Shown in pieces: positions 3,463-22,037 of a stretch of DNA of 64,000 nucleotides. Position 1 is the first letter of the stretch. The number at the start of each line of letters is the position of its first letter. Source of the stretch: Micromonospora sonchi (GTDB taxonomy: Bacteria > Actinomycetota > Actinomycetes > Mycobacteriales > Micromonosporaceae); contig NZ_BMNB01000024.1 of the NCBI RefSeq assembly GCF_014646235.1, positions 1 to 64,000 on the forward strand, read 5' to 3'. The notes beneath the pieces are model-generated. The model saw nothing but the letters and a program-made list of their open reading frames with translations, ran no database searches and had not been told where the DNA came from. A program made the position numbers and the translations under genes.

Positions 3463-3715
3463 GAAACCTCCCGTGTGACGAGCCCCGTCGGGGGGCGTTG
3501 ACGGGTGCGGCCCCCGAAACGCCGGCCTGCACCACGACTCATGGTGTTCGAACGTATGCGAGTGGTGACCGGCCGGCAATGACGGCGTTGGATGGGCGAC
3601 AGAACGTCAGTTCGTCGCTAACGGGCGACCACCGGTTGGTCGAGAGGGAAGCGCCGGCCCCACGGCGGCAACACAGGTGAAGACCGGACCGGCAGCGCTG
3701 CCGCTAACCACAGCG
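3463..3715. other. Upstream region of the secreted protein, no gene seen
   Basis: About 250 bases. The ribosome site of the secreted-protein gene lies at its lower edge. I found no confident promoter and no coding frame with real protein character. Confidence 0.4.
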
Positions 3716-4120
3716 TCACCGACAGAATTTGGTCAGGATGCTTAACCTGATCGGCGTGGGCGTGGCCATTGCCCGGCGCAGCTCAGCGAGGTAGCCGCCC
3801 CGTGCCACTTTCATCCCGCCGCACGCGGCGCGGATGAAGTCGTCGTCCTTGACGATGGCAAGCTGGTCGCAGGCCAGGCAGCCGCGAAACCGAACGCCGT
3901 GGTGAATCCGCCGGGATGCCGCAGGCCCGCCGCCAGCCGCTCGTTCACGACGCGTAGTCGTACCACGTGGGATCAGGCCGCGAGCGGTTGGTCCAGCCAA
4001 CCTCGCCCACCCCTGGTCCAGGCTCCGCATCTGCATCGCGGGCACGGCGGCCGTGCACATCCCCGGCCGTCGCTCACCGCCAGCACCTCGCGGCAGTCGC
4101 CGATGTCGACCATCTGCCAT
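3716..4120 (-). pseudogene. Decayed gene of unknown family
   Basis: On the minus strand, protein-like pieces lie in three different frames in the right order: MVDIGDCREVLAVSDG then CPRCRCGAW in one frame, VVNERLAAGLRHPGGFTTAF in a second, and FRGCLACDQLAIVKDDDF with GGYLAELRRAM in a third. That pattern suggests one ancestral gene broken by at least two frameshifts. The Cys pairs hint at a zinc site. I cannot name the family. Confidence 0.3.
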
Positions 4121-4166
4121 TGGCGGCGCCAACCTGGCGCCTGGTCAGGCCAGCCGGTTGACGTGC

Positions 4167-4450
4167 CTACGCCGGGCGCGCGTCCACAGTGAAGGCGTCG
4201 GCGTAGTCCAGATCGTGCTGTTCCACCACGTCGAAGTTTGCCCGCAGCAGGCCATCCAGTACGGCCAACTGCTCCGCGCTGAACCCCAGGTGACGCGCTC
4301 CCCGAGCCTTGGAACGGCTGCTGTGCACCGCCACCACCATCCGCCCACCGGGCGCGGTGGGTGACCCGACGCAGCTCCTGGACACCCGCTGCCAGATCCG
4401 GCCGGCCACCCCGGACGGAGTCCCGAAAGCATCCATGCCCCCAGCATGCG
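4167..4450 (-). pseudogene. Remnant of a SAM-dependent methyltransferase (C-terminal part)
   Basis: The segment reads AFGTPSGVAGRIWQRV, then (after a probable frame slip) GGRMVVAVHSS, then LAVLDGLLRANFDVVEQHD and an acidic-to-basic end. GGRMVVAVH plus a following helix and strand resembles the last third of class I methyltransferases. The SAM-binding motif I is absent, and the stretch between WQRV and GGRM only fits if the frame changes. Low confidence; it could be another Rossmann-type protein. Confidence 0.3.
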
Positions 4451-4571
4451 GGTTCAAGTCGAATTGAAGGCAAGTCGCCAGCACATTTACCCGGACCCGG
4501 CCGGGTGCCGGGAACAGCCGCGGCGGACCCGCCGCTGGTGGGACCCGAGCCTGGGGGTGGGTCGGGCTCGA

Positions 4572-7500
4572 TCACGGGAAGTCGTCGGGCGTGATGTCGG
4601 GCAGCGTGGCCAGTAGTTGCCCGGCCAGCCGCCGTACGGTGTCGTCGTCTTCCTGTCGGCTGAGCCGGATGAGCAGCTCTCGGGTCCGGGTGTCTCGGTA
4701 GTGGTGTCGGGTCAGCGCGAGCAACGCGGTCCGACGGATCTCCCAGTCGTCGTCGTCGGCCAGCCCGAGCAGCAGCTCCGGCACTCCGGCGCGGCCGGCC
4801 AGGGTCGCGCCGAGTTGTTCCACCGCTCGGCGCCGGACCTCCAGGGCCGGGTCGTCGCGGACCAGTCCGACGAGCAGCACCTGAACTTCGGGGTCGGCGT
4901 CGAAGTGCTCGCCGAGCGCGGCGGCGATGCGGGCGCGGATCGCCGGGTCCGGGTCGGCCAGGCGGCGCATCAGCCGCAGGGTCACCGCCATGGAGGCGGT
5001 TCCCCGCTCGGTCAGGCAGCAGACTGCGGCGTCGAACACGGTCGGGTCGGTGTCCGACTCGACGCATTCCAGCAGCACGTCGGTCATCACGTCGGGGCTG
5101 CCGTACCGGCAGAGCGTCTGCACGGCAGCCAGCCGGATGCCGACGTAGCTGTCCCGGCGGGCCCGCCGGCACAGTGTTTCCACGAGGCCCTCGACCTCGC
5201 CGTGCCGGGCGAGCGTGTCGGCGGCCGCGCGCAGCACGTTGGGGTCGGGATCTCGGCTGACCTGTTCAGCCAGGCACTCCCGCACGGCGGGGTCGGGCGG
5301 TTCGGCGAGACAGGCCAGGCTGCGGGTGACCCGCAGCCGGACGAGCGCGTCCCGCTCTTGGAGGGCTCGGCTGATGAGCAGGTCGCGGGTGGCGTGGCCG
5401 AACAGTTGCCGGCCGGTGAGCAGGTCGACGGCGGTGAGCCGGACGCTCGCGGTCGGGTCGCGTCGGGCGCTGTCCAGCAGCAGTTCTCCGATGCGGGGGT
5501 CCGGGTGGGCCTCGGCCAGGGCGCGTACCGCGGCGAGGCGCACCGTGGCGTCCTCGTCGACGCGAGCCGCGTGCGCCACCACGGTCCAGCAGGTGTCGTC
5601 GGTGCTGTCCCGGTCGATCAGCGCGGTCACGGCGGCAGCCCGCACGGAGGCGTCGTCGTCCTGTTCGATCTGGTCGATCAGCCTGCTCCGGCAGCGTCCG
5701 TCCGGGTCCGGTACGAGCGCCAGCCGCTGCACGGCGGTGGCGCGGAGCCGGGCGGAGCCGTCCGAGCTGGCCAGCTTCAGCAACAGGTCGGTCTCCTCCG
5801 GGCCGGGCCGGCCCGGCAGCAGCCTGGTAACCAGGCAGCGCCGCACCTCGTCCGGGGAGTCGCCGGTCACTCGCTGCAGCGCGCGGCTGCGGGCGGTCTC
5901 GGCGTGCTCGGGCAGGGCCAGCAGGGCTGCCAGCGCGTCCTGCACGACTGCGGGATCGGGGTCGGTGGCCAGTAGTCGCTGGAGGGTGCCGGGTGCGTCC
6001 GGCAGGTCGGTGCAGCGCGCGGTGAGCACGGCGACGGCGGCTCGCCGTACTGTGGTGGCGGTGTCCTCGGTGGCCCGGAGCAGGGCGTGGCGGATGTCGT
6101 CGCTGAGTTCGGCGCGACCGCCGAGGGACTGTACGGCCAGCGCGCGGACCGCGGGGTCGGGTGAGTCGGCGAGGTCGCGGAGCTCGTCGGTGAGGTCGGG
6201 GTCGGCGCCGAAGTGGGTGATCAGGGCCCGTACGGCGGCCTGCCGGACGGCGGTGGAGACCGCGGCTCGGGCCTGGGCGATCAGGATGTCCCGGTAGCGA
6301 CGGTGGTCGCCGTCGGTGGCATCCAGCCGGCCGGCGGCTTCGGCGAGCCCGGCGACCAGGGTGAGGTGGGCTTGCCGCTCGCGGCCCTGCTGGAGTTCCC
6401 GGACGAGCAGTTCCTCCAGGTGTTCCTCGGTGGTGGACAGCGCTGCGGCGATCCGGGTGGCGAAGGCGGAGCCGGAGCGCCAGCTGGTCCGTACGCCGCG
6501 GCGGCGGTACCAGTTCAGGAAGGTGCGCCGGCTGGGCCAGTTCGGCCCGAGTGCCCGGACCGCGGAAAGCAGTTCCTGTTCGGTGAGATCGGCCAGGTTG
6601 GGGTCGTCGGCGGAGATGCCGTGTTCGATCAGCAGCACGACCTGGCGCAGCACGGCATTGCCCGCGTCGGTCAGTTCGGAGGGCTGTGGGGTTTCGGCCA
6701 CGCATTGCGCGGCCAGCACGAGGTTCCAGGGCGGGGCGGTCAGGTTCAGCGGCGGCCAGGGTTGGGTGGTCTCGGTGGCGAGCAGGGTGATCAGGTCGTT
6801 GGCGATCCGGGCGGGTAGGGCGCCGGCGACGAGCCGGAGCACCTCTCGCCAGGACGGGTCGGCCCAGTGTTCGCGGAAGAGGGCGCGGAGCCGGTCGAGG
6901 TCCCAGGCGCCGGGGTCGTTCTCGATCCTGTCCACGATCTCCTCGGCGCAGAAGAATTCCAGGAACGCGCGGTGCACGAACCCGAACAGTCGCAGTCCGT
7001 ATCGTTCCAGGATGAAGCTTCGCTGGCGCAGTTTGTCGATCATCGAGTTGGCCATGGCGAGCGCCCGCTCGTTCTCGAAACCGTAGAACGCGACGAGGTG
7101 GTCGCGGAAGACGCGGGCCAGTTCGTCGGGGTCGATGTAGTTGCCGGCCGTTTCTGGCTCCCCCCGGAACTGCATGCGGAATGCCAGGTGGCGCAGGAGT
7201 CGGCGCTTCGCGTGCAGGTCCAGCGAGGGTACGTCGCCGTGGCTCTCCCGCAGTTGTTTGGTCACGTCCCACTCGGAGATGAGGACGTCGGTGACGTGCG
7301 CGTACAGTCGGCGTCGGTTGCGGGGCAGGGGGTGGCTGCGGCCGACGATCGCCATGAGCATCAGCAGCAGTGGGTTGCCGGCGATCTCGTGCATCGCTCG
7401 GGAGTCGCGCAGCATGTCGAGGAGCTGTCGTCGTTGCCGTTGTGCTTCGACAGCCGGGGTGGGCATCACGTAGCGGTACCAGTTGTCGAGGAACTCGGTG

Positions 7501-8789
7501 ATCTGTTCGTCGTCGAGGTCTTCGAGGGTGAAGTGGTCGAAACCGGCGTTGGCGAAGGTCTGTCGCTGGTAGCCGGCCGCCCGTGAGGTGACCACCGACA
7601 GCACTCCCGGGTACTCGTTGGCGAAGGTGGCGATCTGCGCGGCCACCTCTTCGCGTTGGACCGGGTCGAACACCTCGTCGAGGCCATCGAAGAGAAAGAG
7701 GGCCTGGCCGCCCTGGCGCAGGTATGGCTCCAGCACCTCCTGGTCGATTCCGGTCAGTCCCTGTTCGTGGCAGCGGCCGACGTAGTCGAGCAAGCCGTTG
7801 CAGCGCCCGTCGCGGCGGTGCGCGGCGTAGGAGCGCAGTTCGATCAGCACGGGCAGGTACCGGTTCAGCGCCGCGAGTCGGGGTTCGTCGCAGACTCCGG
7901 CCAGTGCCAGTGCCAGGTACCGTGCGGCCGCTGACTTGCCGGAGCCGGGGTCGCCGAGCAGGACGATCGTCCGGCGGCCGGGGTCGCAGACCACGTCGAA
8001 CAACGAGAGCGCGTCCTTGGCCGCGTACTCCTCCCAGAGTCGTTCGAGCTCTTCCGGGTTCACCACGCCGGGTAGTCCGCCGGTGTCGCCGCCCGGTCTG
8101 GCGCCGGCCCACCGCCACCAGGCCAGTGGCATTTCCGGGCGGGCATCCTCGTGCACCCGGGGCTCGACGAACACTTTCGGCAGCCCGACGGTGAGGTAGC
8201 CGATGGTGGGACGTGGTGAGACAGCGTCGACCGGGACGGCGTGGTACCTGAGCGCCAGTTGCTTGTAGTAGTGGCCGCGTACGGCTTCGGGTAGGTGGGT
8301 GTCCGGGTCGGCGGGTCCGCGTGCGGGGGACCGCCCGCTGCGTACGTCGGCCAGCGCCGCGGTGACCTTGGCGGTGAGGTCGTCGACGCTGGTGAAGAAG
8401 GCGCACAGGTGTCGTTCCTTGAGCTCCCGGCGCAGTTCGACGATCCGTTCCCCGTCGGTGCCCCGGTCGACCTGGTCGACCGGCCAGGGGGTCTCCTCGG
8501 CGAGGAGGAAGACCAGGCAGGGTTTTCCGGCCGCGAGTGCCTCGCGGTACTCCAGTTCGGTGATGGAGGATTCCTGACCGGGCGGGCGGAATCCGTAGCG
8601 CCAGGCAAACAGTCCGATGTAGAGGTCGCAGCGGCGGACGTCGGCCAGGCAGCGGTCGAGCGGTCGTCGGACGTCGGCACCGTACGCTTCCATGGCGACG
8701 TCCTCGATCTCCAGGCGACGTGCCACTGCGTGTACGGCAGCGCGATATTCCAGCAGGTCTTTTTGAGTGGCCGAAATGTAGACCTTCAT
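4572..8789 (-). CDS. DUF4062-NACHT-HEAT STAND NTPase
   Basis: A 1405-residue multidomain protein. Residues 1-150 form a DUF4062 domain (KVYISATQKDLLEYR; later LYIGLFAWRYGF and SITELEYREAL). A NACHT NTPase follows, with Walker A GDPGSGKS at about 279-286 and Walker B LFLFDGLDEV at about 365-374. The C-terminal half, from about residue 830, is a long array of alpha-helical HEAT-like repeats rich in D-P-D-P and R-A-A-V turns. Proteins of this build are NLR-like sensors or conflict-system ATPases: repeats sense, NACHT oligomerises, the N-terminal domain signals. No nuclease, protease or membrane segment is visible. The ATG at 8789 has GGAG nine bases upstream. It is divergent from the SCO2521-like gene, so both may share the 278-base promoter region. 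Confidence 0.9.
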   Translation of the reverse strand: MKVYISATQKDLLEYRAAVHAVARRLEIEDVAMEAYGADVRRPLDRCLADVRRCDLYIGLFAWRYGFRPPGQESSITELEYREALAAGKPCLVFLLAEETPWPVDQVDRGTDGERIVELRRELKERHLCAFFTSVDDLTAKVTAALADVRSGRSPARGPADPDTHLPEAVRGHYYKQLALRYHAVPVDAVSPRPTIGYLTVGLPKVFVEPRVHEDARPEMPLAWWRWAGARPGGDTGGLPGVVNPEELERLWEEYAAKDALSLFDVVCDPGRRTIVLLGDPGSGKSAAARYLALALAGVCDEPRLAALNRYLPVLIELRSYAAHRRDGRCNGLLDYVGRCHEQGLTGIDQEVLEPYLRQGGQALFLFDGLDEVFDPVQREEVAAQIATFANEYPGVLSVVTSRAAGYQRQTFANAGFDHFTLEDLDDEQITEFLDNWYRYVMPTPAVEAQRQRRQLLDMLRDSRAMHEIAGNPLLLMLMAIVGRSHPLPRNRRRLYAHVTDVLISEWDVTKQLRESHGDVPSLDLHAKRRLLRHLAFRMQFRGEPETAGNYIDPDELARVFRDHLVAFYGFENERALAMANSMIDKLRQRSFILERYGLRLFGFVHRAFLEFFCAEEIVDRIENDPGAWDLDRLRALFREHWADPSWREVLRLVAGALPARIANDLITLLATETTQPWPPLNLTAPPWNLVLAAQCVAETPQPSELTDAGNAVLRQVVLLIEHGISADDPNLADLTEQELLSAVRALGPNWPSRRTFLNWYRRRGVRTSWRSGSAFATRIAAALSTTEEHLEELLVRELQQGRERQAHLTLVAGLAEAAGRLDATDGDHRRYRDILIAQARAAVSTAVRQAAVRALITHFGADPDLTDELRDLADSPDPAVRALAVQSLGGRAELSDDIRHALLRATEDTATTVRRAAVAVLTARCTDLPDAPGTLQRLLATDPDPAVVQDALAALLALPEHAETARSRALQRVTGDSPDEVRRCLVTRLLPGRPGPEETDLLLKLASSDGSARLRATAVQRLALVPDPDGRCRSRLIDQIEQDDDASVRAAAVTALIDRDSTDDTCWTVVAHAARVDEDATVRLAAVRALAEAHPDPRIGELLLDSARRDPTASVRLTAVDLLTGRQLFGHATRDLLISRALQERDALVRLRVTRSLACLAEPPDPAVRECLAEQVSRDPDPNVLRAAADTLARHGEVEGLVETLCRRARRDSYVGIRLAAVQTLCRYGSPDVMTDVLLECVESDTDPTVFDAAVCCLTERGTASMAVTLRLMRRLADPDPAIRARIAAALGEHFDADPEVQVLLVGLVRDDPALEVRRRAVEQLGATLAGRAGVPELLLGLADDDDWEIRRTALLALTRHHYRDTRTRELLIRLSRQEDDDTVRRLAGQLLATLPDITPDDFP

Positions 8790-9067
8790 AAACGGCAACT
8801 CCAGGGGTAGCTGGCGACCGCACTATTGAAACTATCAGCCGTCGTCACGTCCGTGCGGCCGGTGATCGCTTCGCCACCATGGGATTCCCGTCGAGGTCGG
8901 GCTTACGATGTCCCTCAGGGCAGATACCGATCCGCGGGTCGGTTCCCGATGTCGCGGGGTCCCGTTGCCTCACCAGGGTCGGTGTCGGCGCGGGTCACGG
9001 CGAGGGTGCATCAGCGGGGTCGCATTCCGCAGGATGATTGCGGGCGGACGGCGATGCGGAGGAAGCT
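8790..9067. promoter_or_regulatory. Divergent promoter region of the NACHT and SCO2521-like genes
   Basis: 278 bases between two outward-facing starts. An AT-richer patch around 8822-8840 (actattgaaactatcag) is the likeliest core promoter for the NACHT gene on the minus strand. No clean -35/-10 pair could be fixed for either direction. The plus-strand gene has a strong GGAGGAA ribosome site at 9058-9064. Confidence 0.35.
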
Positions 9068-10051
9068 ATGATCACGGTCGGTGAGGTGCACACCAACCTG
9101 CTGCAGCACAGCACGGCGCTGGCTCAGGAGCAGAGTTCGGAGGTGCTCAGCCTGGTCGAAGGCGAGGCCGTGCTGACCTCCCGCCGTCCGTCGCTCTATG
9201 CGGTCTCGCCCGATGTGCGCACCGGCGTGGACTGCTGGCTGCCCAGCGCCAGGCGGCGGCAGCTACGGGGGGTGGGCGCGGTGGTCACCCGGGCCATCAT
9301 CACCGGTGGCCGAATCGTGCAGGCGTCGTCGGTCATCCAGGTCGTCGCCGGCGAACGTCGCCAGCCGTGGTCGCACTATCTGGCCAACCCGGGCGTCCTG
9401 GAGACGGTCGGCAAGCTGAACAGCGCCGACCTGACCGCGGGTTTCCTGCACGGCAACGACGCGGACGTGCTGAACCTGGAGGCGATCACCGGACGGGTGC
9501 TCGACGGGGTGCAGATGTCCGACCTGCTGGATCGGCGTCCGCCACTGCGCGCGGCGCGTACCCGGCTGCGCTGGACCGCGCAGGTGGGCCAACAGCCGGA
9601 CCGGGAGGTCTCGGCCGTCGTCACCGTGGACTCCCCGACCCTGCGTACGGTTGAACTGGTGCTCGCCCCGCAGGACGTGCCGGCGGCCGTGGCCGGTCTC
9701 TGCGAGGATCTCGCGTTGCACGACTGGCTACTGACCATGCTCTCCTCCCTGATGGAGGCCGCTGTCACCCGGTCGGCCTCCGGGCAGGAGCACGTCGAGC
9801 GGTTGCGTCCCGTGCTGGAGCACCTGCTGCATCTGTGGTTGCCGGGCGCGCGGGTCAACCCGCGGCTGCGGTCGATCTGGGACCGGTTGGAGCAGGTGCC
9901 CGGATTCAGCCGGCAGTGGAACTCATCGGTGAACTGGATCCGGGATCAGATCAGCGTGGGCAACATGGCGCTGCTGCGTGACCTGGCGGGCCGCATGCGG
10001 TCGACCAGCCGTGCGGGCGCTGACCACACTCACCCGCCGATGAACACGTAA
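9068..10051 (+). CDS. SCO2521 family protein
   Basis: A 327-residue soluble protein beginning MITVGEVHTNLLQHS, with TSRRPSLYAVSPDVRTGVDCWLP and a helical C-terminal half (HDWLLTMLSSLMEAAVTRS). I assign it to the SCO2521 family from memory of that conserved actinobacterial group and from its neighbours, which match SCO2522 to SCO2525. Biochemical role is unknown; no enzyme motif or membrane segment is visible. The ATG at 9068 with GGAGGAAGCT directly upstream is preferred over a longer in-frame start. Its end overlaps the end of the convergent SCO2522-like gene by 22 bases, so it is the only member of the set on the plus strand. Confidence 0.75.
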   Translation: MITVGEVHTNLLQHSTALAQEQSSEVLSLVEGEAVLTSRRPSLYAVSPDVRTGVDCWLPSARRRQLRGVGAVVTRAIITGGRIVQASSVIQVVAGERRQPWSHYLANPGVLETVGKLNSADLTAGFLHGNDADVLNLEAITGRVLDGVQMSDLLDRRPPLRAARTRLRWTAQVGQQPDREVSAVVTVDSPTLRTVELVLAPQDVPAAVAGLCEDLALHDWLLTMLSSLMEAAVTRSASGQEHVERLRPVLEHLLHLWLPGARVNPRLRSIWDRLEQVPGFSRQWNSSVNWIRDQISVGNMALLRDLAGRMRSTSRAGADHTHPPMNT

Positions 10052-11007
10052 CTCAGTCGGTCGACGAGCTCGCTGGGCAGGTGCAGGCCTTCACCATCGG
10101 CGCGCCGGGCGACCTGTTGCGCGACCGACGGCGGTACCGCCACCTGGCCGAGGATGGTCCGTACCGCCAGCTCGACCGGCAGGTACTGGGTGTCCATGAG
10201 GGTCAGTGTGCGGTACGCGCAGAACGGCGCGGCGGTCGGGTTGAGCTGCACGACCGCCGGCAGCTCGTCCCAGTCGACGGGTAGCTCGCCGGTGAGCCGG
10301 CTCGGTTGCATCAGGGTCTGCCCGCGGTGCCGCAGCACGCCCAGCCGGGTCATCTGCCAGACCGATGCGAGCAGCGCACACGCCCACACCCGGGTGTTCG
10401 GTTCGTCGGACCACAGCTCGATGTCCACGAAGATGGAGTGCCGGGGGTCGCCGGACTGCACCGGCGGGGACCAGGGGCGAGGCAGGGTCATCGCCGGCGC
10501 GTCAACGTGCCCGGGTGAGCGCATGCCGTTGGACAGCCACCCGGATTCACTGAGCGGGGGCCGGCTTCCGGTGGTGTGCCGGGGTGGTTCCACCACGAGG
10601 GTGTCGACCACCATCTGGGCGAGCTCGACGCCGCCGTGGCGGGCGAAGCTGGATTCCCGGGCCACGTAGTCCAACACCAGGCCGAGCTCCGCCGCGGCGC
10701 CCTGCACCTGAGGGATCACCTCGCGTGGTGAGCCGAATCGGTGGAAGTAGTCGTCCACCATGAAGCAGGTGCTGATCCGCGGCTGGCGGTGTGTCGGCAG
10801 TCCCTGGCGGGCCAGGGCCGGGATCGCCGGTGACCAGTCGGCGATGCGCGCGAACCTGCGCCGCAGCTCCTGGCAGCCGGCGCCGAAGTCCTCCGCGTAG
10901 AAGTGCCCCAACTCGACCGACAGGTGTGAGTACGCCACGCTCTCTGTCCGACGCACCGCAGCTGCCTCCTGGAACCTGACATCCACGTCGATCACACGGT
11001 TTCCCAT
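10030..11007 (-). CDS. SCO2522 family protein
   Basis: A 325-residue protein starting MGNRVIDVDVRFQEAA and containing YSHLSVELGHFYAEDF, then DDYFHRFGSP, SIFVDIELWSDEPNTRVWACALLASVW and a C-terminal YRTLTLMDTQYLPVELAVRTIL. It is the fourth gene of the minus-strand set and fits the SCO2522 family, whose function is unknown. ATG 11007 overlaps the stop of the P-loop gene by 16 bases. A GTG at 10995 would give a four-base GTGA overlap and has GGGA just before it, so that start is also plausible. Either way the two genes are translationally coupled. No signal peptide or membrane helix. Confidence 0.75.
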   Translation of the reverse strand: MGNRVIDVDVRFQEAAAVRRTESVAYSHLSVELGHFYAEDFGAGCQELRRRFARIADWSPAIPALARQGLPTHRQPRISTCFMVDDYFHRFGSPREVIPQVQGAAAELGLVLDYVARESSFARHGGVELAQMVVDTLVVEPPRHTTGSRPPLSESGWLSNGMRSPGHVDAPAMTLPRPWSPPVQSGDPRHSIFVDIELWSDEPNTRVWACALLASVWQMTRLGVLRHRGQTLMQPSRLTGELPVDWDELPAVVQLNPTAAPFCAYRTLTLMDTQYLPVELAVRTILGQVAVPPSVAQQVARRADGEGLHLPSELVDRLSYVFIGG

Positions 11008-11921
11008 GCGGTCTCGTCGAAGAGCTTTTCGGTCAGATTTACGATGGCGTCCACCGTCTTCACATTCGCGATCTTGGCTTGTACGTCGTGGTCCGAGATG
11101 AGCTGTTCCCGCCACTGCAACAGCGGGTCCAGCGGCACCGTGCCGAGCAGCGTCGTGCGCCCGACGCCTCGGCGGCGGGCCAGATCCGACAGTTCCGTGT
11201 CGCACCCGCGCAGGAATGCCTGCTGCGCGAGGTCGAGGTAGCCGACCTCGGGGCCGCGGGAGTCGATCACCGCCGTGCGGATGAAGCGCAGCGACTCCTG
11301 CAGCCGCTCCGGCTCGTGGCCGTATTCCTTGCCCATGGCGAGGATGCCGCCCGCCTCGAAGGCGAGATCTGCCGCTGCGGTGACGTGCTGGGGAGTCCAG
11401 CGGTGGAAGACCAACCAGCGCGCGGTCACCTTGCGTAGAGTGGGGGTTGCCGTGGCGGCCAGCGCGATCTGGCTGGCGTACGAGCGGCCGGCGCTGAGGT
11501 CCACGAGGGTCAGGTCGAACTCCTCTTCCAGCCGGAGGAAGAGTTCGGCGCAGCGTTTGGCGATGTCGTTGGTGAAGCCGAATTCGCTGCCGTTGCGCTG
11601 GCCGGGTAGCAGCACCAGCGGGCCCGCGCCGATGGGTCGCTGGCGCAGGCCGACCTGTTCCGAGGTGCCCCAGACGTCCATCTGTTCGGGAAATGGGATC
11701 TCGCCCCGCAGGTAGCGGTGCAAGCCGCCGCTGTTGGGCCCGGCGCCCTCCACCCCGTCGACGGCGTGCGGGATCTGGAACGTGATGCCAGCGGTCGGCG
11801 AGCCGAAGTCGTAGTCCAGGTAGCAGGTGGGGCGGCCGGACAGGGCGCTGCGGTAGGCGATGTTCGCGGCGGTCACCGAGCGACCGGTGCCACCCTTGTG
11901 CGACGTGACGAAGACCAGCAT
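10992..11921 (-). CDS. SCO2523 family variant P-loop (ParA/MinD-like) protein
   Basis: A 309-residue protein with a deviant Walker A near its start: VFVTSHKGGTGRSVTAANIAY. ParA/MinD ATPases have KGGxGK[T/S]. Here the signature first Lys is kept but the phosphate-binding Lys is Arg, which matches the variant P-loop label of the SCO2523 family. Further ParA-like features are CYLDYDFGSPTAG (the A' switch region) and LTLVDLSAGRSYASQIAL. A partner-guided switch or scaffold on a surface is plausible, but ATPase activity may be reduced or absent. ATG 11921 overlaps the stop of the SCO2524-like gene as TGATG, so it is coupled to the upstream gene. Confidence 0.8.
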   Translation of the reverse strand: MLVFVTSHKGGTGRSVTAANIAYRSALSGRPTCYLDYDFGSPTAGITFQIPHAVDGVEGAGPNSGGLHRYLRGEIPFPEQMDVWGTSEQVGLRQRPIGAGPLVLLPGQRNGSEFGFTNDIAKRCAELFLRLEEEFDLTLVDLSAGRSYASQIALAATATPTLRKVTARWLVFHRWTPQHVTAAADLAFEAGGILAMGKEYGHEPERLQESLRFIRTAVIDSRGPEVGYLDLAQQAFLRGCDTELSDLARRRGVGRTTLLGTVPLDPLLQWREQLISDHDVQAKIANVKTVDAIVNLTEKLFDETAWETV

Positions 11922-13762
11922 CAGATCCCCTCGCTGGCTTTCTGCTGCCCGGTGGTGACGTCGTTGAGCAGGAGCAGCAGCGTGTTCGCCAGGGCGGCCG
12001 CCGTGCCCGGACGTTCGTCCACCAGCAGCTGCGCCCGGTGCAGGCTGGCCCGGATGCTGTGCATGCTGCGTTGCATCGCCTTGCCGGCGAACGTGCCGCG
12101 CATCAGCTCGCGGTCGAACAGGTATTCCGCCTCGTCGATCAGGTCCTGTGCGTACGCGGCGAGCCGGCCGGCGCGCGGGAAGGGACGTTCCCAGAGCAGT
12201 TGACCGGCGTTGACCAGCGCGTGCACCACCCGCTCGGTCAGGTACCAGGAGGGCGCGTCCGGTTTGGGGGCCAGCCCGGGAAAGGCACCGCCGGCATGGT
12301 CCCACAGCTCTCGGTGCCGGCCGTCGGGGATGCGGCGCAGCAGCAGATGGTCCCACACCTCGTCGGCCAACTCGAGCAGTTCGCTGCGCCGCCGGGCGTT
12401 GCTCAGCAGGCCGGCGACGGTGATCGCCCGCTGGAGCAGCACGGTGGAGAACTCGTTCACGTTCCACGTCATGATCGGCTTGGGCGTGTCGTCGTTGAGG
12501 GTGACCCGCTTACCGGGAGTGTGCACGACCAGCGCAGACTCGCCGGGCGATGCGCGTCGGGTGACGCGTGCCCGCTGCGCCAGTTCCACGAGCACCGCGG
12601 CGATGCGGCCGAGTTCCTCGTCGCCGCCGCGTCCGACCGCGAGCAGTCCCTTGACTGCCAGCGACGTCGTTTGGAGGGTGTAGTAGTCGGTGCGGTCGCC
12701 GTCGGTCGTGCGCCACGGGATGTCCTCGATGGGCCATCGCCGCCGGTTGCCGAAGGTCGCCACCGTCGCCCAGTAGGTCCGGGTCAGCTCCCAGCGTAGT
12801 TGCAGTGCCCGGGACAGCCGCTGTTGTTCCTCGTTGAGCAGGCCGAGCAGGCGGGTACGTTCGGAGTTCAGGTCTTCGATGGCGTCCATCGCGATGACCG
12901 TGAAGTAGAGGTAGGGGGCGTTCTCGGCCGAGCCTTCGCGTTGCCGGCCGATCGGCTCGCTGGTGGGGACTTCCTCGGCGCCGGCGATGATGCCCCACGA
13001 CCAGCCGCATTCGAAGAGCATGTCCCTGTTGTCGAGGTCTTCGGTGACCCGGCCCGACCCGATGATCACGCTGCGCAGGCTGGCCATGGTGTCCCGCAAT
13101 TGTCCGCGCAGCGCCGTGACGAGTTCGCGGCGCGGAAGCTCGTCCTGGTTGACCATGTCGCACAGCCGGCGGCCGTACTCGTCGGTGGAGGTGAAGACAA
13201 AGGTGCTGAAGCTGCGCAGCAGGCCCACCATGGCGGCGGTGAGCCGGATGCCGGCCATCGCCTCCAGGTCGTCCAGTTGCGCGAGCAGGTCCCGTCGCTC
13301 GGTGGCTCTGCGGTAGACCTTGACGAAACCGATCGTCGCCAACGTGAGGGTGACGGAGACGGCGAACGAGTCGACGACGTCCAGGGACCGTTGTTCGTCG
13401 GTGAGATCCGGGCCGCCCTCCACCGGGTTCAGGTAGCCGCCGCCGCTGAAGATGGGCGTGCCGTCCTCGGCGGTGTACCGCCTGAAGTAATCGATCATGA
13501 CGCCGACCAGCCGGCGGGGAATCTCGATCGCACCGCCGATGGGGCTGAGGGCCTCGACCACCTCGTCGTCGGCGCTGTCGGGGTCATCGAGCGACAGCAC
13601 GGGGACCTTGGCCATGGGAAGAAGCAGGATCAGTAGTTGCTCGGCATCACTGATGGAATTGCTACCGCTTCGGCCGCCCCAGTGCCATTCACCCTTCTCC
13701 CAACAACTCCGCATCGTGGCCCGCCAGATGTCGAGGATCTCCTGGCGCGGCTGTATTCGCAT
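11921..13762 (-). CDS. SCO2524 family protein
   Basis: A 613-residue, mostly helical soluble protein beginning MRIQPRQEILDIWRATMRSCW, with a WHWGGRSGSNSISDAEQLL block near the N-terminus, GGAIEIPRRLVGVMIDYFRRY, and ECGWSWGIIAGAEEVP and RWPIEDIPWRTTDGD in the middle. It fits the SCO2524 family, whose role is unknown. I see no metal-site, protease or nucleotide motif, so a structural or sensor part of a complex with the P-loop protein is the simplest inference. ATG 13762 is chosen because the conserved block starts there, although its ribosome site (GGTGG) is weak and the frame runs on upstream to 13843. Its stop overlaps the P-loop gene by one base. Confidence 0.75.
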   Translation of the reverse strand: MRIQPRQEILDIWRATMRSCWEKGEWHWGGRSGSNSISDAEQLLILLLPMAKVPVLSLDDPDSADDEVVEALSPIGGAIEIPRRLVGVMIDYFRRYTAEDGTPIFSGGGYLNPVEGGPDLTDEQRSLDVVDSFAVSVTLTLATIGFVKVYRRATERRDLLAQLDDLEAMAGIRLTAAMVGLLRSFSTFVFTSTDEYGRRLCDMVNQDELPRRELVTALRGQLRDTMASLRSVIIGSGRVTEDLDNRDMLFECGWSWGIIAGAEEVPTSEPIGRQREGSAENAPYLYFTVIAMDAIEDLNSERTRLLGLLNEEQQRLSRALQLRWELTRTYWATVATFGNRRRWPIEDIPWRTTDGDRTDYYTLQTTSLAVKGLLAVGRGGDEELGRIAAVLVELAQRARVTRRASPGESALVVHTPGKRVTLNDDTPKPIMTWNVNEFSTVLLQRAITVAGLLSNARRRSELLELADEVWDHLLLRRIPDGRHRELWDHAGGAFPGLAPKPDAPSWYLTERVVHALVNAGQLLWERPFPRAGRLAAYAQDLIDEAEYLFDRELMRGTFAGKAMQRSMHSIRASLHRAQLLVDERPGTAAALANTLLLLLNDVTTGQQKASEGI

Positions 13763-13994
13763 GATCCACCGCCGTCTGCATGTAGTCGCCGACTCGGAAC
13801 CGCTGGTCTTGCCGTGCGCACGATGATCCACGATGACTGGCACCGATGTGCCATGTCATGGTAGCGGGCCGGTCGAGTGCCACCGGAGACGCTCTGCCTG
13901 CCGCACGTCGGCGAGTCCCCCGGGCCTTGATGCAGGATGTCCGCCCGGCAGGCCGGGGGCGTCCACTCGGCGGCGACGATGATACGCACCGGCA

Positions 13995-14786
13995 CTATCC
14001 GCGGGTGCGGCCGGTGGCCAGCAGCATGCTCAGGTATCCGTCGCGCAACGACGGTCGGGGGCGCTCCTCGTGGACGGTCACGTCGTACGCGCCGGCCGCG
14101 ATGCCAGCCACCACCTCAGCGCGTTGCAGCGCCACGGCCGGGAAGAAGCGCGGGCCGACGCGGTAGCCGGCGGACCCGAGCATGACGGCCACGGCGAAGG
14201 GTGAGCCGGGGCGCAGCGCCCGCAGGAACCGGGCGACGGCGTGTTCGGCCTCCGCCCGGTCGGCCGAGATGGAGCAGGCCACGAAGAACATCGTGCCCGC
14301 GTCCCAGGTGTGCTGCGGCAGGTCGAAAACGCTGGTCCTGCAGACTCGGCCGACCTGTGCCAGACGCCGTCGCGGATCGGGCAGCGCCGCGTACGCCGGG
14401 TGCTCCACGCAGACCTGCCAGTACGGGTCCCAGAGTTCGTCGTAGCCGTCGACCTGCGTACGCAGCCAGCGCACATTCGACGTGGACCACTCACACAGAT
14501 CGATGGTGTACGCGAACGGCAGGAGCGTCAGGGCCGGGTAGAGGTTCGCACCCGATCCAACGTCGACACAGCGTGCGTCGGCCAGCTTCGCTCCGGCGAA
14601 GAAGTCTCGGGTTCGGCGGAGCAGCTCCCGGTCGTCGGAGCGCAGGTCCGCGTAGTTGTGCCGGACATAGGCCTGCGGGTCGAAACCGTCCCACTCGACC
14701 TCGGTGTTCACCGGCCTCGGGGACTGGATCGGCACGGATGACGCGGGCGACTCGCCACAACCGCCGGCCGCCGGGGTCAACGCCAT
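13995..14786 (-). CDS. SCO2525 family SAM-dependent methyltransferase
   Basis: A 263-residue class I methyltransferase. Motif I is CVDVGSGANLYPALTLLPFA (about residues 73-92), preceded by FDPQAYVRHNYADLR and followed by IDLCEWSTSNVRWL, where the acidic residue binds the SAM ribose. A later strand TMFFVACSISAD occupies the motif IV region. The layout recalls the small-molecule NNMT/PNMT-like class, but the substrate is unknown. It fits the SCO2525 family and is the first gene of the minus-strand set, about 230 bases before the SCO2524-like start. Starting at ATG 14786 gives a short disordered N-terminus; a later start is possible. A role as the modifying enzyme of the cassette is inference. 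Confidence 0.8.
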   Translation of the reverse strand: MALTPAAGGCGESPASSVPIQSPRPVNTEVEWDGFDPQAYVRHNYADLRSDDRELLRRTRDFFAGAKLADARCVDVGSGANLYPALTLLPFAYTIDLCEWSTSNVRWLRTQVDGYDELWDPYWQVCVEHPAYAALPDPRRRLAQVGRVCRTSVFDLPQHTWDAGTMFFVACSISADRAEAEHAVARFLRALRPGSPFAVAVMLGSAGYRVGPRFFPAVALQRAEVVAGIAAGAYDVTVHEERPRPSLRDGYLSMLLATGRTRG

Positions 14787-15055
14787 GGACGTGCCTCCAT
14801 CGGTCTCGGCGGATCACACTCGGTTGCCGCTCCGGCGCGGTCAGTACATCGAACATTGTGCATCGAACCTGTTGCCTGCTCGCAAGTGACGGCACGTCAC
14901 CGCAGACAAGGAGCGGCAACCTGGCACGGCCCCGCCTTCCCCCGATACGCAGGGCTGACCCCGTCACGGTGCCCGCTCCCCCTCGGCGGCCTACGACCTT
15001 GGAATCCCCAGCTCAACATCATGATCAAGTTGCTCTCAGGCGGCCATCGACCCTC

Positions 15056-15085
15056 TTGACACACTCCAGATTGTAGCGTTAACAT
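15056..15085 (+). promoter_or_regulatory. Probable promoter of the GH43 gene
   Basis: TTGACA at 15056-15061 is followed after 18 bases by TAACAT at 15080-15085. The first LacI-type operator overlaps the -10 element, so bound repressor would block polymerase. The predicted start is near 15092, about 225 bases before the gene. Confidence 0.6.
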
Positions 15086-15109
15086 CACCGCAACATTGTT
15101 AACGCTAAC
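15073..15109. promoter_or_regulatory. Pair of LacI-family-type operator sites
   Basis: GTAGCGTTAAC at 15073-15083 and GTTAACGCTAAC at 15098-15109 are near-palindromic TTAACGCTAA-type sites. They flank the predicted transcription start, 26 bases apart centre to centre. This core is typical of LacI/GalR-family regulators of actinobacterial sugar genes. No LacI-type gene lies in the window. Confidence 0.6.
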
Positions 15110-15278
15110 AGGGAAGCTCAGTTCATTGGCCCCGCACCGGCCGAGGCCGAGTCAAAATGGACCCGTGCGCTGGAAGTCCGCCCTTCAACACCCTCGCGAT
15201 CACCTTCGAGGACCGCCACACCATCAACCAACGAACAACACGCCGGTTACACCGGAAATCCGACACTTCCGCCCCGTT

Positions 15279-15290
15279 GTTAGCGCTAAC
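15279..15290. promoter_or_regulatory. Perfect LacI-type palindrome GTTAGCGCTAAC
   Basis: A perfect 12-base palindrome 28 bases before the GH43 start codon. With the two sites near 15.08-15.11 kb it forms a three-operator array. Its distance of about 190 bases from the upstream pair could allow DNA looping, or it may serve a second, closer promoter. Confidence 0.65.
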
Positions 15291-15317
15291 GCAGCCCAGA
15301 CGGAAGGCTATGACCTG

Positions 15318-17072
15318 ATGGCTATCGAGAAATCCGCTGGAAAGCGACGTCAAGGTTTAGCGGCTATTGGCCTTGCTCTCCTGGTAGGAGTAGGGATAGG
15401 CCAACTGACACCGATCGGGCCAGCCTCGGCGGACAAGCCCGCGCAGCCGGCGGCGCCGGGCCACAAACCCCAGACCCCGTCCGCCAAGGTGCCGCTGAGC
15501 GGTGTCGACATGGCGCAGACATATGTGAACCCGATCAATCTGCCCGGGATGGCGGTGCGCAACATCGTAGGGACGATGCCGCCCACGGACGCGAATGTCG
15601 CAAACACATCGCAAATTCCAGCCAGTTTGAACCTGGAGACGTGGACGGCAGCGTCCGGGCGGACTCTCGCGAGCCGATCCACCGTCGGTTTCACCAGGAT
15701 TTCGGAGAACTCGGCACGGACCGGGGCGGACTGGTCCGCGGTGAACGTCGACGGGACCATCTATCTCTACGCATCCGGTGCCATGCAGAGCGCGCCGAAC
15801 AACAACCGCACCGTCTGGTCCACCACCGACTACCTCACGTGGACGCCCCATGAGATGAACCTGGGCTTGGTCGCACCAACCGTCGTGCAGATCGGCAACA
15901 AGTTCTACATGGCCGGCAACAACACGCCGGTCTATCAGGCGGACTCGCCCACCGGGCCGTGGACCAGCATGGGGAACTTCCTGCGCCCGACCGGCCAGAC
16001 CCTGAGCGTCGGCGACGTGCAGTTCTTCCTTGACACGGACGGCCGGCTGTACTTGACGTACAACATCGGCTCGCCGATCATGGGCGCCGAACTCGACCCG
16101 AACAATCCTCGGCAGCTCATCAGCGACCCGGTCGTGCTCTGGACCTTCGACCCGCGCCAGGAATGGCAGCACATCGGTGACAACAAGGCGACCTACACGC
16201 ATGGGTACGTGGAGGGCGCACAGCTGTTCAAGGTGGGGAAGACCTATTACCTCTCGGTCGCGTCCGGTGGCACCGAGTACACCACGTACGCGACGGGCGT
16301 CATGACGTCGAAAAAACCGCTTTCAGGATTCAAGGAAACGCAGCAGAACCCGATCGGCTACGGGAACAACCACCCCAGTGCGGTATATCCGAACGCCGGG
16401 CACGGCAGTTTCGTACTCGACGATTCCGGTAACCTGGTGTTCTTCTACACCTACGTCATCGCATACGAGGAGTTCTTCGAGCGACGGCTGGGAATGGACA
16501 TCTGCAACGTGATTTCCACTGGTCCGCAGAAGGGAGCGATCGATTGCGAGTTGTCCAACACGCCGCAACTGGCCCCCGGCAAGAAGATCGCGGGCAGGGA
16601 CGACGTCGGGCTCTACAATGTGGCCACCAACAGCCAGGTCTACTGGGCGAGCAGCTATGCCCCCGGGCGCAACCCGTACTACGGCGGGGACCGATCACTA
16701 TCCACCTGGTGGGAGCCGGCTGACAACGACAACGCGCCCACCTACATCAGGGGCTTCGGGACCGTCTTCCACATCTCCGCTGCCCAGATCCAGTGGAAGG
16801 AGCTCGGACGGACGTTCACGAAGGACAACGCCGTGCAGTACACGCTGGAGTACAAGGACATTCCGACCAACACGTGGCGGACGCTGGTCGACAAGAGCAC
16901 GAACACCACCGCGTACACGGCTGACTACGTCACCTTCGACCGGGTGCTGACGAACGCGGTCAGGCTGAAGATCCTGGGTACGACCGAGAACGTGAAGGTC
17001 GGAGTCCACGAACTCAACGTGTTCGGCGAGAACTACCACCTGGTCGCCTCGAAGGGCATGATCACCAAGTAG
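15318..17072 (+). CDS. Secreted GH43-family glycoside hydrolase with C-terminal galactose-binding-like domain
   Basis: A 584-residue exported protein. A Sec signal lies in residues 1-38 (KRRQG, hydrophobic GLAAIGLALLVGVGIG, cleavage after ASA). The catalytic five-bladed propeller of family 43 covers roughly 90-430, with the base Asp in GADWSAVNVDGTIYLYASG (D138) and the general-acid Glu in YVEGAQLFKVGKTYYL (E299). The last 140 residues form an F5/8 type C or CBM32-like beta-sandwich ending KVGVHELNVFGE. The likely substrate is an arabinose-, xylose- or galactose-containing polymer; the exact linkage cannot be read. ATG 15318 has GGAAGG ten bases upstream. It stands alone, controlled by LacI-type operators and closed by a strong hairpin. 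Confidence 0.85.
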   Translation: MAIEKSAGKRRQGLAAIGLALLVGVGIGQLTPIGPASADKPAQPAAPGHKPQTPSAKVPLSGVDMAQTYVNPINLPGMAVRNIVGTMPPTDANVANTSQIPASLNLETWTAASGRTLASRSTVGFTRISENSARTGADWSAVNVDGTIYLYASGAMQSAPNNNRTVWSTTDYLTWTPHEMNLGLVAPTVVQIGNKFYMAGNNTPVYQADSPTGPWTSMGNFLRPTGQTLSVGDVQFFLDTDGRLYLTYNIGSPIMGAELDPNNPRQLISDPVVLWTFDPRQEWQHIGDNKATYTHGYVEGAQLFKVGKTYYLSVASGGTEYTTYATGVMTSKKPLSGFKETQQNPIGYGNNHPSAVYPNAGHGSFVLDDSGNLVFFYTYVIAYEEFFERRLGMDICNVISTGPQKGAIDCELSNTPQLAPGKKIAGRDDVGLYNVATNSQVYWASSYAPGRNPYYGGDRSLSTWWEPADNDNAPTYIRGFGTVFHISAAQIQWKELGRTFTKDNAVQYTLEYKDIPTNTWRTLVDKSTNTTAYTADYVTFDRVLTNAVRLKILGTTENVKVGVHELNVFGENYHLVASKGMITK

Positions 17073-20172: not shown

Positions 20173-21132
20173 TCACGTGCGCTTGCGGATCTCCTCGACG
20201 GCCTGCGGTACGACCTTGAACAGGTCGCCGACCACGCCGAAGTCGGCCAGTTCGAAGATCGGTGCTTCGGCGTCCTTGTTGACCGTGACGATGGTCTTGG
20301 AGGTCTGCATCCCGGCCCGGTGCTGGATCGCCCCGGAGATACCCAGGGCGATGTACAGCTGGGGGGAGACCGTCTTGCCGGTCTGCCCGACCTGGAACTG
20401 GTGCGGGTAGAAGCCCGAATCCACCGCCGCCCGGGACGCGCCCACCGCACCGCCGAGCAGGTCGGCCAGTTCCTCGACGAGCTTGAAGTTGTCGGCGTTA
20501 CCGACACCACGACCACCGGACACGACGACGGAGGCTTCGGTCAGCTCCGGGCGGGAGCCCTTCTGCTCGGCGACCCGCTGCACCACCCGGGCCAGCTTGT
20601 CCGTGTCGCTGACGGTGACGGTGAGTTGCTCCACCTCCTGGCTGGCCGGAGCCGGGGTCGGGGACAGCGAGTTCGGGCGGACGGTAACCAGCGGCAGGCC
20701 ACGAGTGACCTTCGACTTCACGATGGTGGAACCGGCGAACACCACCTGGGTCGCGGTGCCGTCCGCAGCCAGGTCGGTCACGTCGGTCAGGATGCCGTTG
20801 TCCAGCTTCACCGCCAGGCGGGCGGCGATCTCCTTGCCCTCCTGCGACGAGGCCAGCAGCACCGCACCCGGGCGCACCCGCTTCACCAGATCGGCCAGCA
20901 CGGTGGCCTTCGGGGCCACCAGGTAGCCGTCGATCTCCTCTCCCTCCGCGGCATAAACCTTCGCCGCGCCGTACTCACCCAGCTTCGGGCTCAGCGCGTC
21001 GGCGGCGCCGGGACCGCCGAGCACGACCGCGGCGGGGGTGCCCAACTGCCGGGCGAGGGTGAGCATCTCCAGGGTGACCTTCTTGACGCCGAACTCCCCG
21101 GTGGCTTCGACGACGACGAGAATCTCAGACAT
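20173..21132 (-). CDS. etfA: Electron transfer flavoprotein alpha subunit
   Basis: A 319-residue subunit of the heterodimeric ETF, which takes electrons from acyl-CoA dehydrogenases and passes them to the respiratory chain. The N-terminal domain begins [18 protein letters not shown]. The FAD-binding C-terminal domain shows [14 protein letters not shown] (about residues 207-220), [21 protein letters not shown] and [17 protein letters not shown], all ETF-alpha signatures. ATG 21132 has GAGGGG eight bases upstream; a GTG three codons earlier is less likely. It follows etfB with only 12 bases between the genes. The three acyl-CoA dehydrogenases upstream are its likely partners. Confidence 0.95.
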
Positions 21133-21144
21133 GACCCGCACCCC

Positions 21145-21924
21145 TCACACGAACTTCTCGGTGGCGAGGAACTCCACCAGCTTCACGCCGCCGTCGCCCT
21201 CATCGGTGACCTTCACGCCGGCCGACCGCGGCGGGCGCTTGGCGTGCTCCAACACCGTGCTGGTCGCCCCGTCGAAACCCACCTCAGCGGCGGCGATGCC
21301 CAGGTCGGCCAGGGCCAGGGTCTGCACCGGCTTCTTCTTCGCGGCCATGATGCCCTTGAACGACGGGTACCGCGGCTCGTTGATGGTGTCCCACACGGAA
21401 ACCACAGCCGGCGTCGAGGCGGTGACCACCTCGTAGCCCTCCTCGGTCTGCCGCTCGACGGTCAGCGTCGACCCGTCGACGGTGAGCTTCCGCGCACCGG
21501 TCAGGGCGGCCACACCCAGCCGCTCGGCGATCATGTGTGGGATCACCTGCACCCGCCCGTCCGTCGACTCCGCACCACAGATGATCAGATCCGCGCCCAG
21601 CTGGCCGAGAGCGGCGGCGAGGACCTTCGACGTCGCCACCGCGCACGAGCCGTGCAGGGCGTCGTCCACCACATGCACCGCCTTGTCCGGCCCCATCGAC
21701 AACGCCTTACGGACCGACTCGGACGCCCGATCCGGACCCATGGTCAGGATCGTCACCTCGCCGCCGTGCGCCTCCTTGATCTTCAACGCCTCCTCGATGG
21801 CATACTCATCCATCTCGTTGATGACGTTGTCCGTCGAACCACGATCGACAGTGTTGTCGTCAGAACGCAGGCTGCGGTCCGCCCCCGAATCAGGCACCTG
21901 CTTGACGAGTACGACGATATTCAT
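21145..21924 (-). CDS. etfB: Electron transfer flavoprotein beta subunit
   Basis: A 259-residue subunit starting MNIVVLVKQVPDSGADRSL. It shows the AMP- and partner-binding region NVINEMDEYAIEEALKIKE, LTMGPDRASESVRKALSMG, and the recognition-loop area ADLIICGAESTDGRVQVIP typical of ETF-beta. It pairs with the alpha subunit directly downstream. It lies 113 bases after the thioesterase gene that closes the 13-gene CoA operon on the same strand. It may be read through from that operon or have its own promoter; no clear promoter was seen in the gap. Confidence 0.95.
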   Translation of the reverse strand: MNIVVLVKQVPDSGADRSLRSDDNTVDRGSTDNVINEMDEYAIEEALKIKEAHGGEVTILTMGPDRASESVRKALSMGPDKAVHVVDDALHGSCAVATSKVLAAALGQLGADLIICGAESTDGRVQVIPHMIAERLGVAALTGARKLTVDGSTLTVERQTEEGYEVVTASTPAVVSVWDTINEPRYPSFKGIMAAKKKPVQTLALADLGIAAAEVGFDGATSTVLEHAKRPPRSAGVKVTDEGDGGVKLVEFLATEKFV

Positions 21925-22037
21925 CGCGCTTCAACGACCTCCCACTACGTAATCTGCCGGCCCAGCCAGCTCCATAACACGTCCCGGTGGGGCATCAATC
22001 TCGGTCATGCTGGTTCCCTTCGTGGCGGGCGGGGCTA

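Follow-up and report, generated by a model that had tools for sequence, protein, structure and literature searches.

Bacterial NACHT (bNACHT) antiphage proteins such as EruA and bNACHT25 are built around a central NACHT domain with a Walker A motif, and to our knowledge none has an obligate set of five partner genes. A 2026 preprint (PMC13174449) describes, in its accessible part, DUF4062 as a TIR-like family of NAD+ hydrolases (NADases), shows its activity both for the Swarozyc phage defence and for human TEP1, and reports the family to be toxic on activation. The same part of that preprint lists animal proteins (TEP1, NWD1, NWD2 and NPHP3) in which DUF4062 lies beside a NACHT ATPase, several of them with C-terminal repeats. 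The accessible text on conflict systems of multicellular prokaryotes (PMC7159879) describes MinD/ParA-like domains predicted to be inactive, FGS domains and signal transduction ATPases with numerous domains (STAND NTPases). The SCO2521–SCO2525 families are present in NCBIfam as model names without a function. Here we analysed a stretch of 64,000 nucleotides from Micromonospora sonchi (contig NZ_BMNB01000024.1, positions 1 to 64,000; hereafter the window), in which a gene for a DUF4062-NACHT-HEAT protein (the NACHT protein) stands in a six-gene block with one member of each of these five families. We found that the block travels between genomes as one DNA unit, and that a conserved SCO2521–2524 core, often with SCO2525, is inherited and transferred together with one output gene of several types.

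The NACHT protein (1405 residues; 4572–8789, minus strand) starts at an ATG at 8789, and its homologues start at or near that ATG. It has the build of an immune-type STAND/NACHT receptor, with an N-terminal effector-type domain, a NACHT domain with a Walker A motif and a C-terminal repeat array. Pfam placed the TIR-like DUF4062 domain (PF13271, 71.4 bits) at 8538–8786, the NACHT NTPase domain (PF05729, 43 bits; Walker A GDPGSGKS) at 7476–7973 and 11 stretches of HEAT_2 repeats (PF13646), the predicted sensor part, within the approximate limits 4575–6278, all on the minus strand. The Walker A pattern was found in 54 of 55 NACHT calls longer than 1200 residues. The HEAT part is the least conserved, with a mean pairwise identity of 0.35–0.41 as against 0.65 for DUF4062. 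Profile searches matched the DUF4062 domain to KpSwz (10wc_A, 2.2e-8) and TEP1 (11gz_A, 9.9e-8), and aligned the glutamate of the KpSwz motif SFTE with E78 of SITELEY (codon GAA, 8556–8558, minus strand), which is the predicted catalytic residue; by our own numbering, a chain that begins at residue 16 would make the KpSwz residue the published E97. Of 48 distinct NACHT proteins, 43 have glutamate at this position and three have histidine; in two (L103 and L142) the motif was not found. Membership of the family makes NAD depletion the predicted output of the NACHT protein.

The window protein shares a DUF4062 domain with a glutamate at the catalytic position with the Swarozyc protein KpSwz, which acts in abortive infection; as described in the accessible part of PMC13174449, KpSwz is short and carries a portal-binding auxiliary domain, whereas the window protein combines DUF4062, NACHT and HEAT and has five partner genes. 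We considered it as a Swarozyc member and rejected this assignment, given that a protein of 1405 residues does not have the short build of DUF4062 plus an auxiliary domain. The animal proteins in the same text differ in having WD40 repeats rather than HEAT repeats in several cases, and in having no partner operon. Similarity to EruA was weak (28.9 bits against an NCBIfam cut-off of 1000). The systems of PMC7159879 resemble the block in their STAND NTPases and predicted-inactive MinD/ParA-like domains, but the accessible main text contains neither DUF4062 nor a methyltransferase, and an aminoacyl-tRNA synthetase appears there in the reference list only.

Family models, Pfam matches and codon-checked starts indicated that all six genes are real, and NCBIfam cut-offs and Pfam confirmed the six genes and families that had been named in an earlier reading of the bare sequence (the original prediction). 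All five partner products exceeded their NCBIfam equivalog cut-offs: SCO2521 (9068–10051, plus strand, ATG at 9068; NF040565, 365 bits, cut-off 150), SCO2522 (10030–10995, minus strand, GTG at 10995; NF040566, 458 bits, cut-off 200), the variant P-loop protein SCO2523 with the motif KGGTGRS (10992–11921, minus strand, ATG at 11921; NF040564, 418 bits, cut-off 200), SCO2524 (11921–13762, minus strand, ATG at 13762; NF040567, 800 bits, cut-off 300) and SCO2525, a methyltransferase dependent on S-adenosylmethionine (13995–14786, minus strand, ATG at 14786; NF040568, 305 bits, cut-off 240). The coordinates also bore out the predicted geometry: the NACHT gene diverges from SCO2521 across an intergenic region at 8790–9067, and SCO2521 converges on SCO2522, their 3′ ends overlapping at 10030–10051. 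The original prediction had described the minus-strand partner genes as coupled. This holds for SCO2524, SCO2523 and SCO2522, which are coupled because their reading frames overlap (by 1 base between SCO2524 and SCO2523 and by 4 bases between SCO2523 and SCO2522), but not for SCO2525, which a gap of 232 bases separates from SCO2524 and which is thus not translationally coupled.

To define the edges of the unit, positions 1–22000 of the window were compared by blastn with 21 related loci, 19 of them from Micromonospora or Verrucosispora. The entire block was found in 17 of the 21; SCO2525 was displaced in two of the others (L073 and L084) and missing in a third (L075), and the fourth (L076) had SCO2524 alone. 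The left edge coincides with the NACHT stop codon or lies slightly beyond it (4554–4572), the right edge lies a short way upstream of SCO2525 (14818–14961), and both vary with the relative compared; these extents place the mobile unit at 4558–14961. Window flank DNA outside the block matched none of the 21 loci (counting matches of more than 150 bases at E 1e-10). SCO2524 occurs in two of eight genomes of the same genus. The sole other same-genus genome with the cassette in this sample (G082) has it at 1.03 Mb, and a copy of a conserved window flank (20173–21940) lies in that genome at 4.13 Mb. Because only two of eight genomes carry SCO2524 and the sites are unrelated, the unit is dispensable in the genus. 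No repeat of 9–12 bp was shared between 4450–4650 and 14801–15060, no recombinase is encoded among the six genes, and neither a tRNA in the window nor an Rfam family in 3500–15500 was found. In plasmid and phage collections, tblastn (E 1e-5) returned no relatives of SCO2524, and in phages no relatives of the window DUF4062 domain.

We surveyed the distribution of the cassette in two disjoint sets, 121 genomes of the family (67 loci) and 394 genomes from the rest of the class (34 loci), and in a set of named loci (the best 80 loci out of 433, leaning to Micromonosporaceae) that overlaps with both; genes in the loci were called with our own codon-based caller. SCO2524 was carried by 65 of the 121 family genomes and 35 of the 394 class genomes, and SCO2525 accompanied the core in 36 of 67 and 23 of 34 loci, respectively. 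Beside the core we found a slot that is filled in different ways. The family loci had the NACHT gene in 24 cases, a gene that we call c4 in 30, neither in 13 and both in none; the class loci had c4 in 29, NACHT in none and neither in five; and the named loci had a window-type NACHT gene (at least 100 bits) in 33, including L069 and a shortened copy in L103, c4 in 44 and neither in three. L069 is the one named locus with both, its weak c4 relative (54 bits) lying on the far side of SCO2525. The NACHT gene is therefore a lineage-specific option for the slot. The original prediction had counted absence of NACHT from most other SCO2521–2525 loci as one half of what would speak against a functional link, and this half proved true (24 of 67 family loci and 0 of 34 class loci have it), because another protein often occupies the slot. 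Exchange of this kind is typical of effector positions in modular bacterial immune systems.

The c4 product has about 320 residues, and hydropathy places one or two membrane segments near the N terminus in 109 of 110 copies. It is a membrane protein whose end resembles DUF6879, a family that three of four scanned sequences (copies or relatives) matched weakly, at 19, 22 and 28 bits against a cut-off of 23.9. A profile search of PDB sequences with c4 gave a weak best match (E 0.19). In every family and named locus in which both genes were called, c4 adjoins SCO2521 and points the same way (27 of the 30 family loci with c4 and 39 of the 44 named ones). The class loci agree in 26 of 29; SCO2522 lies between the two genes in two of the others, and c4 lies across the core in one. 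Where both NACHT and c4 are missing, other proteins can take the place. In four loci (L156–158 and L168), SCO2521 is followed by a homologous protein of about 275 residues that has two membrane segments towards its C terminus and that we take to be channel-like; L207 and L235 have another membrane protein where c4 would be; and in Planotetraspora thailandica a different NACHT protein with an FGE-sulfatase domain (L142:14630-17377, 54 bits) stands beside SCO2521. In Sphaerisporangium sp. TRM90804 (L137) a c4-type cassette is on a contig titled plasmid.

The original prediction had tied the NACHT gene to the other five by position only; that tie is now supported by block-wise movement, fixed divergence and matched evolutionary distances. 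Close DUF4062-bearing NACHT homologues, defined by a cut of at least 480 bits that was picked after the hits were seen, occur in 23 of the 121 family genomes (the G063 copy is cut by a contig end), with at most four candidates scored per genome in the family and two in the class. All 23 genomes have SCO2524, against a baseline of 65 of 121 (p about 7e-8, ignoring phylogeny), and all 23 have cassette-linked copies, 24 in total, as G115 has two. Wherever both genes are present (24 family and 33 named loci), the NACHT gene diverges from SCO2521 without exception; the two are directly adjacent in 19 and 29 of these, respectively, and separated by a gene for a DAO-family oxidase in five and four. 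In the class sample, 10 other genomes have a NACHT relative at 237–507 bits. In all seven of those that also have SCO2524, the two lie on different contigs, which alone is no proof of distance, or more than 700 kb apart. Cassette linkage is specific to the window-type NACHT subfamily, because these class relatives lie away from SCO2524, and this subfamily probably arose by recruitment out of a broader family of free-standing genes.

The genes of the unit also share a history. A FastTree tree was built from 157 SCO2524 proteins; it has long branches, and in it the 46 NACHT-type proteins form one starred set together with L076, L100 and L107. By recorded genus, NACHT-type and c4-type loci number 3 and 5 in Actinoplanes, 1 and 6 in Paractinoplanes and 20 and 1 in Micromonospora, so that type does not track genus. 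The simplest reading is that c4 was replaced once by NACHT, and that the typed unit then spread by transfer across genera. The pairwise distances of NACHT proteins correlate with those of core proteins at 0.981–0.987 (NACHT with SCO2524, r = 0.987; 45 loci), and those of core proteins in the NACHT-type set correlate with one another at 0.968–0.985; for c4 and core proteins the correlations are 0.71–0.84, as against 0.84–0.90 among core pairs (81 loci). The SCO2524 proteins of the window and of M. qiuiae share 95% identity. Five pairwise comparisons indicated purifying selection on all six genes (dN/dS 0.03–0.38), and in each of the five, within the NACHT protein, DUF4062 had the lowest dN/dS (0.03–0.13) and HEAT the highest (0.27–0.38).

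We next consider what the core proteins might do. The AlphaFold model of SCO2522 (predicted local distance difference test (pLDDT) 84.8) has class I aminoacyl-tRNA synthetases as its nearest folds, arginyl-tRNA synthetase (ArgRS) first (2zue_A; VIA Z 12.0 over 209 residues, root-mean-square deviation (rmsd) 3.6); 1iq0 was the sole Foldseek match under E 0.001 (E 3.2e-4), and no viral structure matched the model under that value. An ELGH segment, in which S26, E28, G30 and H31 are invariant in 45 of 45 homologues, stands where we presume from the fold match that the HIGH motif would be; the position of KMSKS is likewise our assumption from that match. KMSK[SR] occurs in none of 175 homologues, a looser form was not found in their last 80 residues, and most homologues end 1–4 residues past the last strand. 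The model thus suggests a fold like the catalytic domain of class I aminoacyl-tRNA synthetases without KMSKS. The absence of KMSKS from all 175 homologues led us to reject the name aminoacyl-tRNA synthetase for SCO2522. Synthetase-like ligases of the MshC type share the predicted fold (MshC 3c8z_B, Z 9.7), but SCO2522 ends about where a KMSKS loop would begin and has ELGH at the presumed HIGH position.

The SCO2524 model (pLDDT 93.6) appears as an (alpha/alpha)6 toroid near sugar 2-epimerases, GH76 and related enzymes (4z4l, VIA Z 20.2 over 337 residues, rmsd 4.1; best Foldseek E 0.015, not significant), and suggests the toroid fold of N-acylglucosamine 2-epimerase (AGE) and similar (alpha/alpha)6 enzymes. 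SCO2523 is MinD/ParA-like, with KGGTGR in place of the KGGxGK of ParA and MinD and an R14 that is invariant in 29 of 29 aligned homologues; its match to the KGGVGR domain model NF047398 is below the cut-off of that model. It is probably a weak or inactive ATPase, judging by this motif. The ParA-like switch in intracellular patterning that had been proposed for the block is weakened by the arginine in place of the second P-loop lysine, and we rank such patterning low because SCO2523 carries it. SCO2525 matches PF01234 (NNMT/PNMT/TEMT) at 38 bits. With E values of up to 1 allowed, no Pfam family recurred among the homologues: any one family was hit by no more than 1 of 45 SCO2521, 2 of 19 SCO2524 and 2 of 45 SCO2522 members. 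Profile searches of PDB sequences returned nothing for SCO2522 or SCO2521 and a weak match for SCO2524 (E 0.024), and profiles showed no similarity of SCO2522 or SCO2524 to SCO2521. Among the Pfam matches of the six genes there was no vWA or MoxR-type family, which are components of vWA-MoxR ternary conflict systems; VMAP was not sought by model.

The slot varies between membrane and NACHT proteins and the core is constant, and we therefore propose that the core is a sensor or signal maker and the slot its output. In the window, SCO2522, SCO2524, SCO2525, SCO2523 and SCO2521 would make or monitor a small molecule or complex. Phage or another stress would disturb this molecule or complex, a change that the HEAT repeats may register; NACHT would then exchange nucleotide and oligomerise, and the clustered DUF4062 domains would hydrolyse NAD+ and so arrest the growth of a cell that is infected or damaged. 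Where relatives carry a membrane protein (c4 or one of the two others), the core would act through that protein, which might for instance injure the membrane or depolarise it. Together, these data suggest that the block is a hitherto undescribed bacterial defence or stress system, a function that we infer. The immune or stress role put forward in the original prediction is plausible in view of the DUF4062 NADase precedent. We give this reading, a conserved core with an exchangeable output that is here NAD depletion through DUF4062-NACHT-HEAT, a probability of roughly 0.45.

Several observations weigh against it. Free-standing NACHT relatives exist, and most of the 13 of 67 family loci with neither NACHT nor c4 have no recognised slot filler. 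Histidine replaces the catalytic glutamate in three Actinoplanes homologues (L098, L099 and L115). The fold match of SCO2522 has low TM-scores (0.31–0.40 by query length), and PADLOC hidden Markov models recognised no family in five of the proteins (SCO2523 not included), the best match being to the NACHT protein at E 0.004. Of the four human DUF4062-NACHT proteins, according to the accessible part of PMC13174449, TEP1 alone hydrolyses NAD+ and NWD1, NWD2 and NPHP3 are inactive, so the architecture alone is no proof of NADase activity. The main counter-evidence comes from the accessible part of the literature, which places the Streptomyces coelicolor sco2521–2526 operon under HupS control, gives SCO2525 (second-hand) as needed for normal growth and describes it as an HrdB target with a morphogenetic role. 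In one locus (L191, genome G001), the NACHT gene is intact but SCO2524 and SCO2523 are broken up into multiple frames, through decay or perhaps sequencing error.

The Streptomyces data lend themselves to another explanation, in which the core is a metabolic or envelope module for growth and development in filamentous actinobacteria, the slot protein only guards it, attack on the core or loss of what it makes prompts NACHT to kill the cell, and the immune part is secondary. The growth phenotype of SCO2525 fits development equally well, but could also arise if loss of SCO2525 set an effector free. The spread of the core through the family and the class, with c4 as its commonest partner outside the NACHT clade, suits such a module; its presence in only two of eight genomes of the genus, at unrelated sites, and an exchange of slot proteins as is usual for effectors do not. 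We consider this explanation possible but doubtful. A bolder version of the signalling idea makes SCO2521–2525 a new signal-generating or guarding core, whose synthetase-fold enzyme, toroid resembling sugar enzymes and methyltransferase would make a small aminoacyl-type messenger that interchangeable effectors read: the NAD-depleting protein, of the nucleotide-binding leucine-rich repeat receptor (NLR) type, the DUF6879-type membrane protein and the channel-like protein. This would parallel CBASS or Thoeris with non-nucleotide chemistry, and we think it unlikely.

Two further explanations concern the pairing itself. The core might restrain an always-poised NADase, so that its loss kills the cell and keeps the unit in place. 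A discrete mobile unit with divergent genes and no recombinase of its own would fit such addiction, as would an output domain from a family that is toxic on activation (accessible part of PMC13174449), but NACHT is intact in L191 where SCO2524 and SCO2523 look broken, core genes occur without a recognised slot protein, and an antitoxin of four enzymes would be unusual; this seems quite improbable to us. Alternatively, a free-standing STAND defence gene may simply have landed beside the core, leaving a link of position only. The distant NACHT-HEAT relatives off the cassette in all seven class genomes with both genes, and five extra close copies off it in the family, speak for this. Set against them are the 24 linked copies in 23 of 23 genomes, a geometry kept strictly through two block orders, the matched distances and the shared edges, by which chance landing is largely refuted, and we regard it as very unlikely.

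The unit ties five curated families of unknown function from several actinobacterial families to a predicted NLR-type NADase and recasts them as a testable core-plus-effector system. A bacterial DUF4062-NACHT protein, with the architecture of human TEP1 and NWD1, now also has defined genetic partners. Should the core make a signal, its chemistry would be unlike the nucleotide signals known to date. The accessible parts of the literature naming SCO2521–2525 give no mechanism and do not connect these genes with a slot in which NACHT and membrane proteins are exchanged, and we found no description of a core-plus-slot system in the literature searched, which left subscription papers mostly outside.

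Some minor features of these loci are also of note. The five extra close NACHT copies away from the cassette are in G020, G058, G104, G113 and G120; the DUF4062-NACHT-HEAT paralogues off the cassette in G020, G058, G104 and G113 are longer, with open frames of 2018–2193 residues. A gene for a DAO-family oxidase that uses flavin adenine dinucleotide (FAD) lies at or near many cassettes of both types (37 of 67 in the family set), among them L098, L099, L115, L124 and many of c4 type. Paractinoplanes toevensis has an apparent partial duplication of the cassette (L133:4565-16812), with two SCO2525 and two SCO2524 genes. Near the block in the window, a TPR-rich frame at 1162–2463 has partial similarity to the TPR protein of FxSxx-COOH systems (48.8 bits, cut-off 300). 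A gene pair for a protein with TrkA_N and RyR domains, as read from the scanned copy in L070, and a protein of about 165 residues without a Pfam match, which to us looks SLOG-like, accompanies NACHT-type units at 11 of the named loci, which belong to two genera. The pair lies on different sides of the block, after NACHT in L070 (19281–21579), L071, L072, L074, L078, L084, L085 and L086 and after SCO2521 in L098, L099 and L115, and may be a second linked module or part of a shared island.

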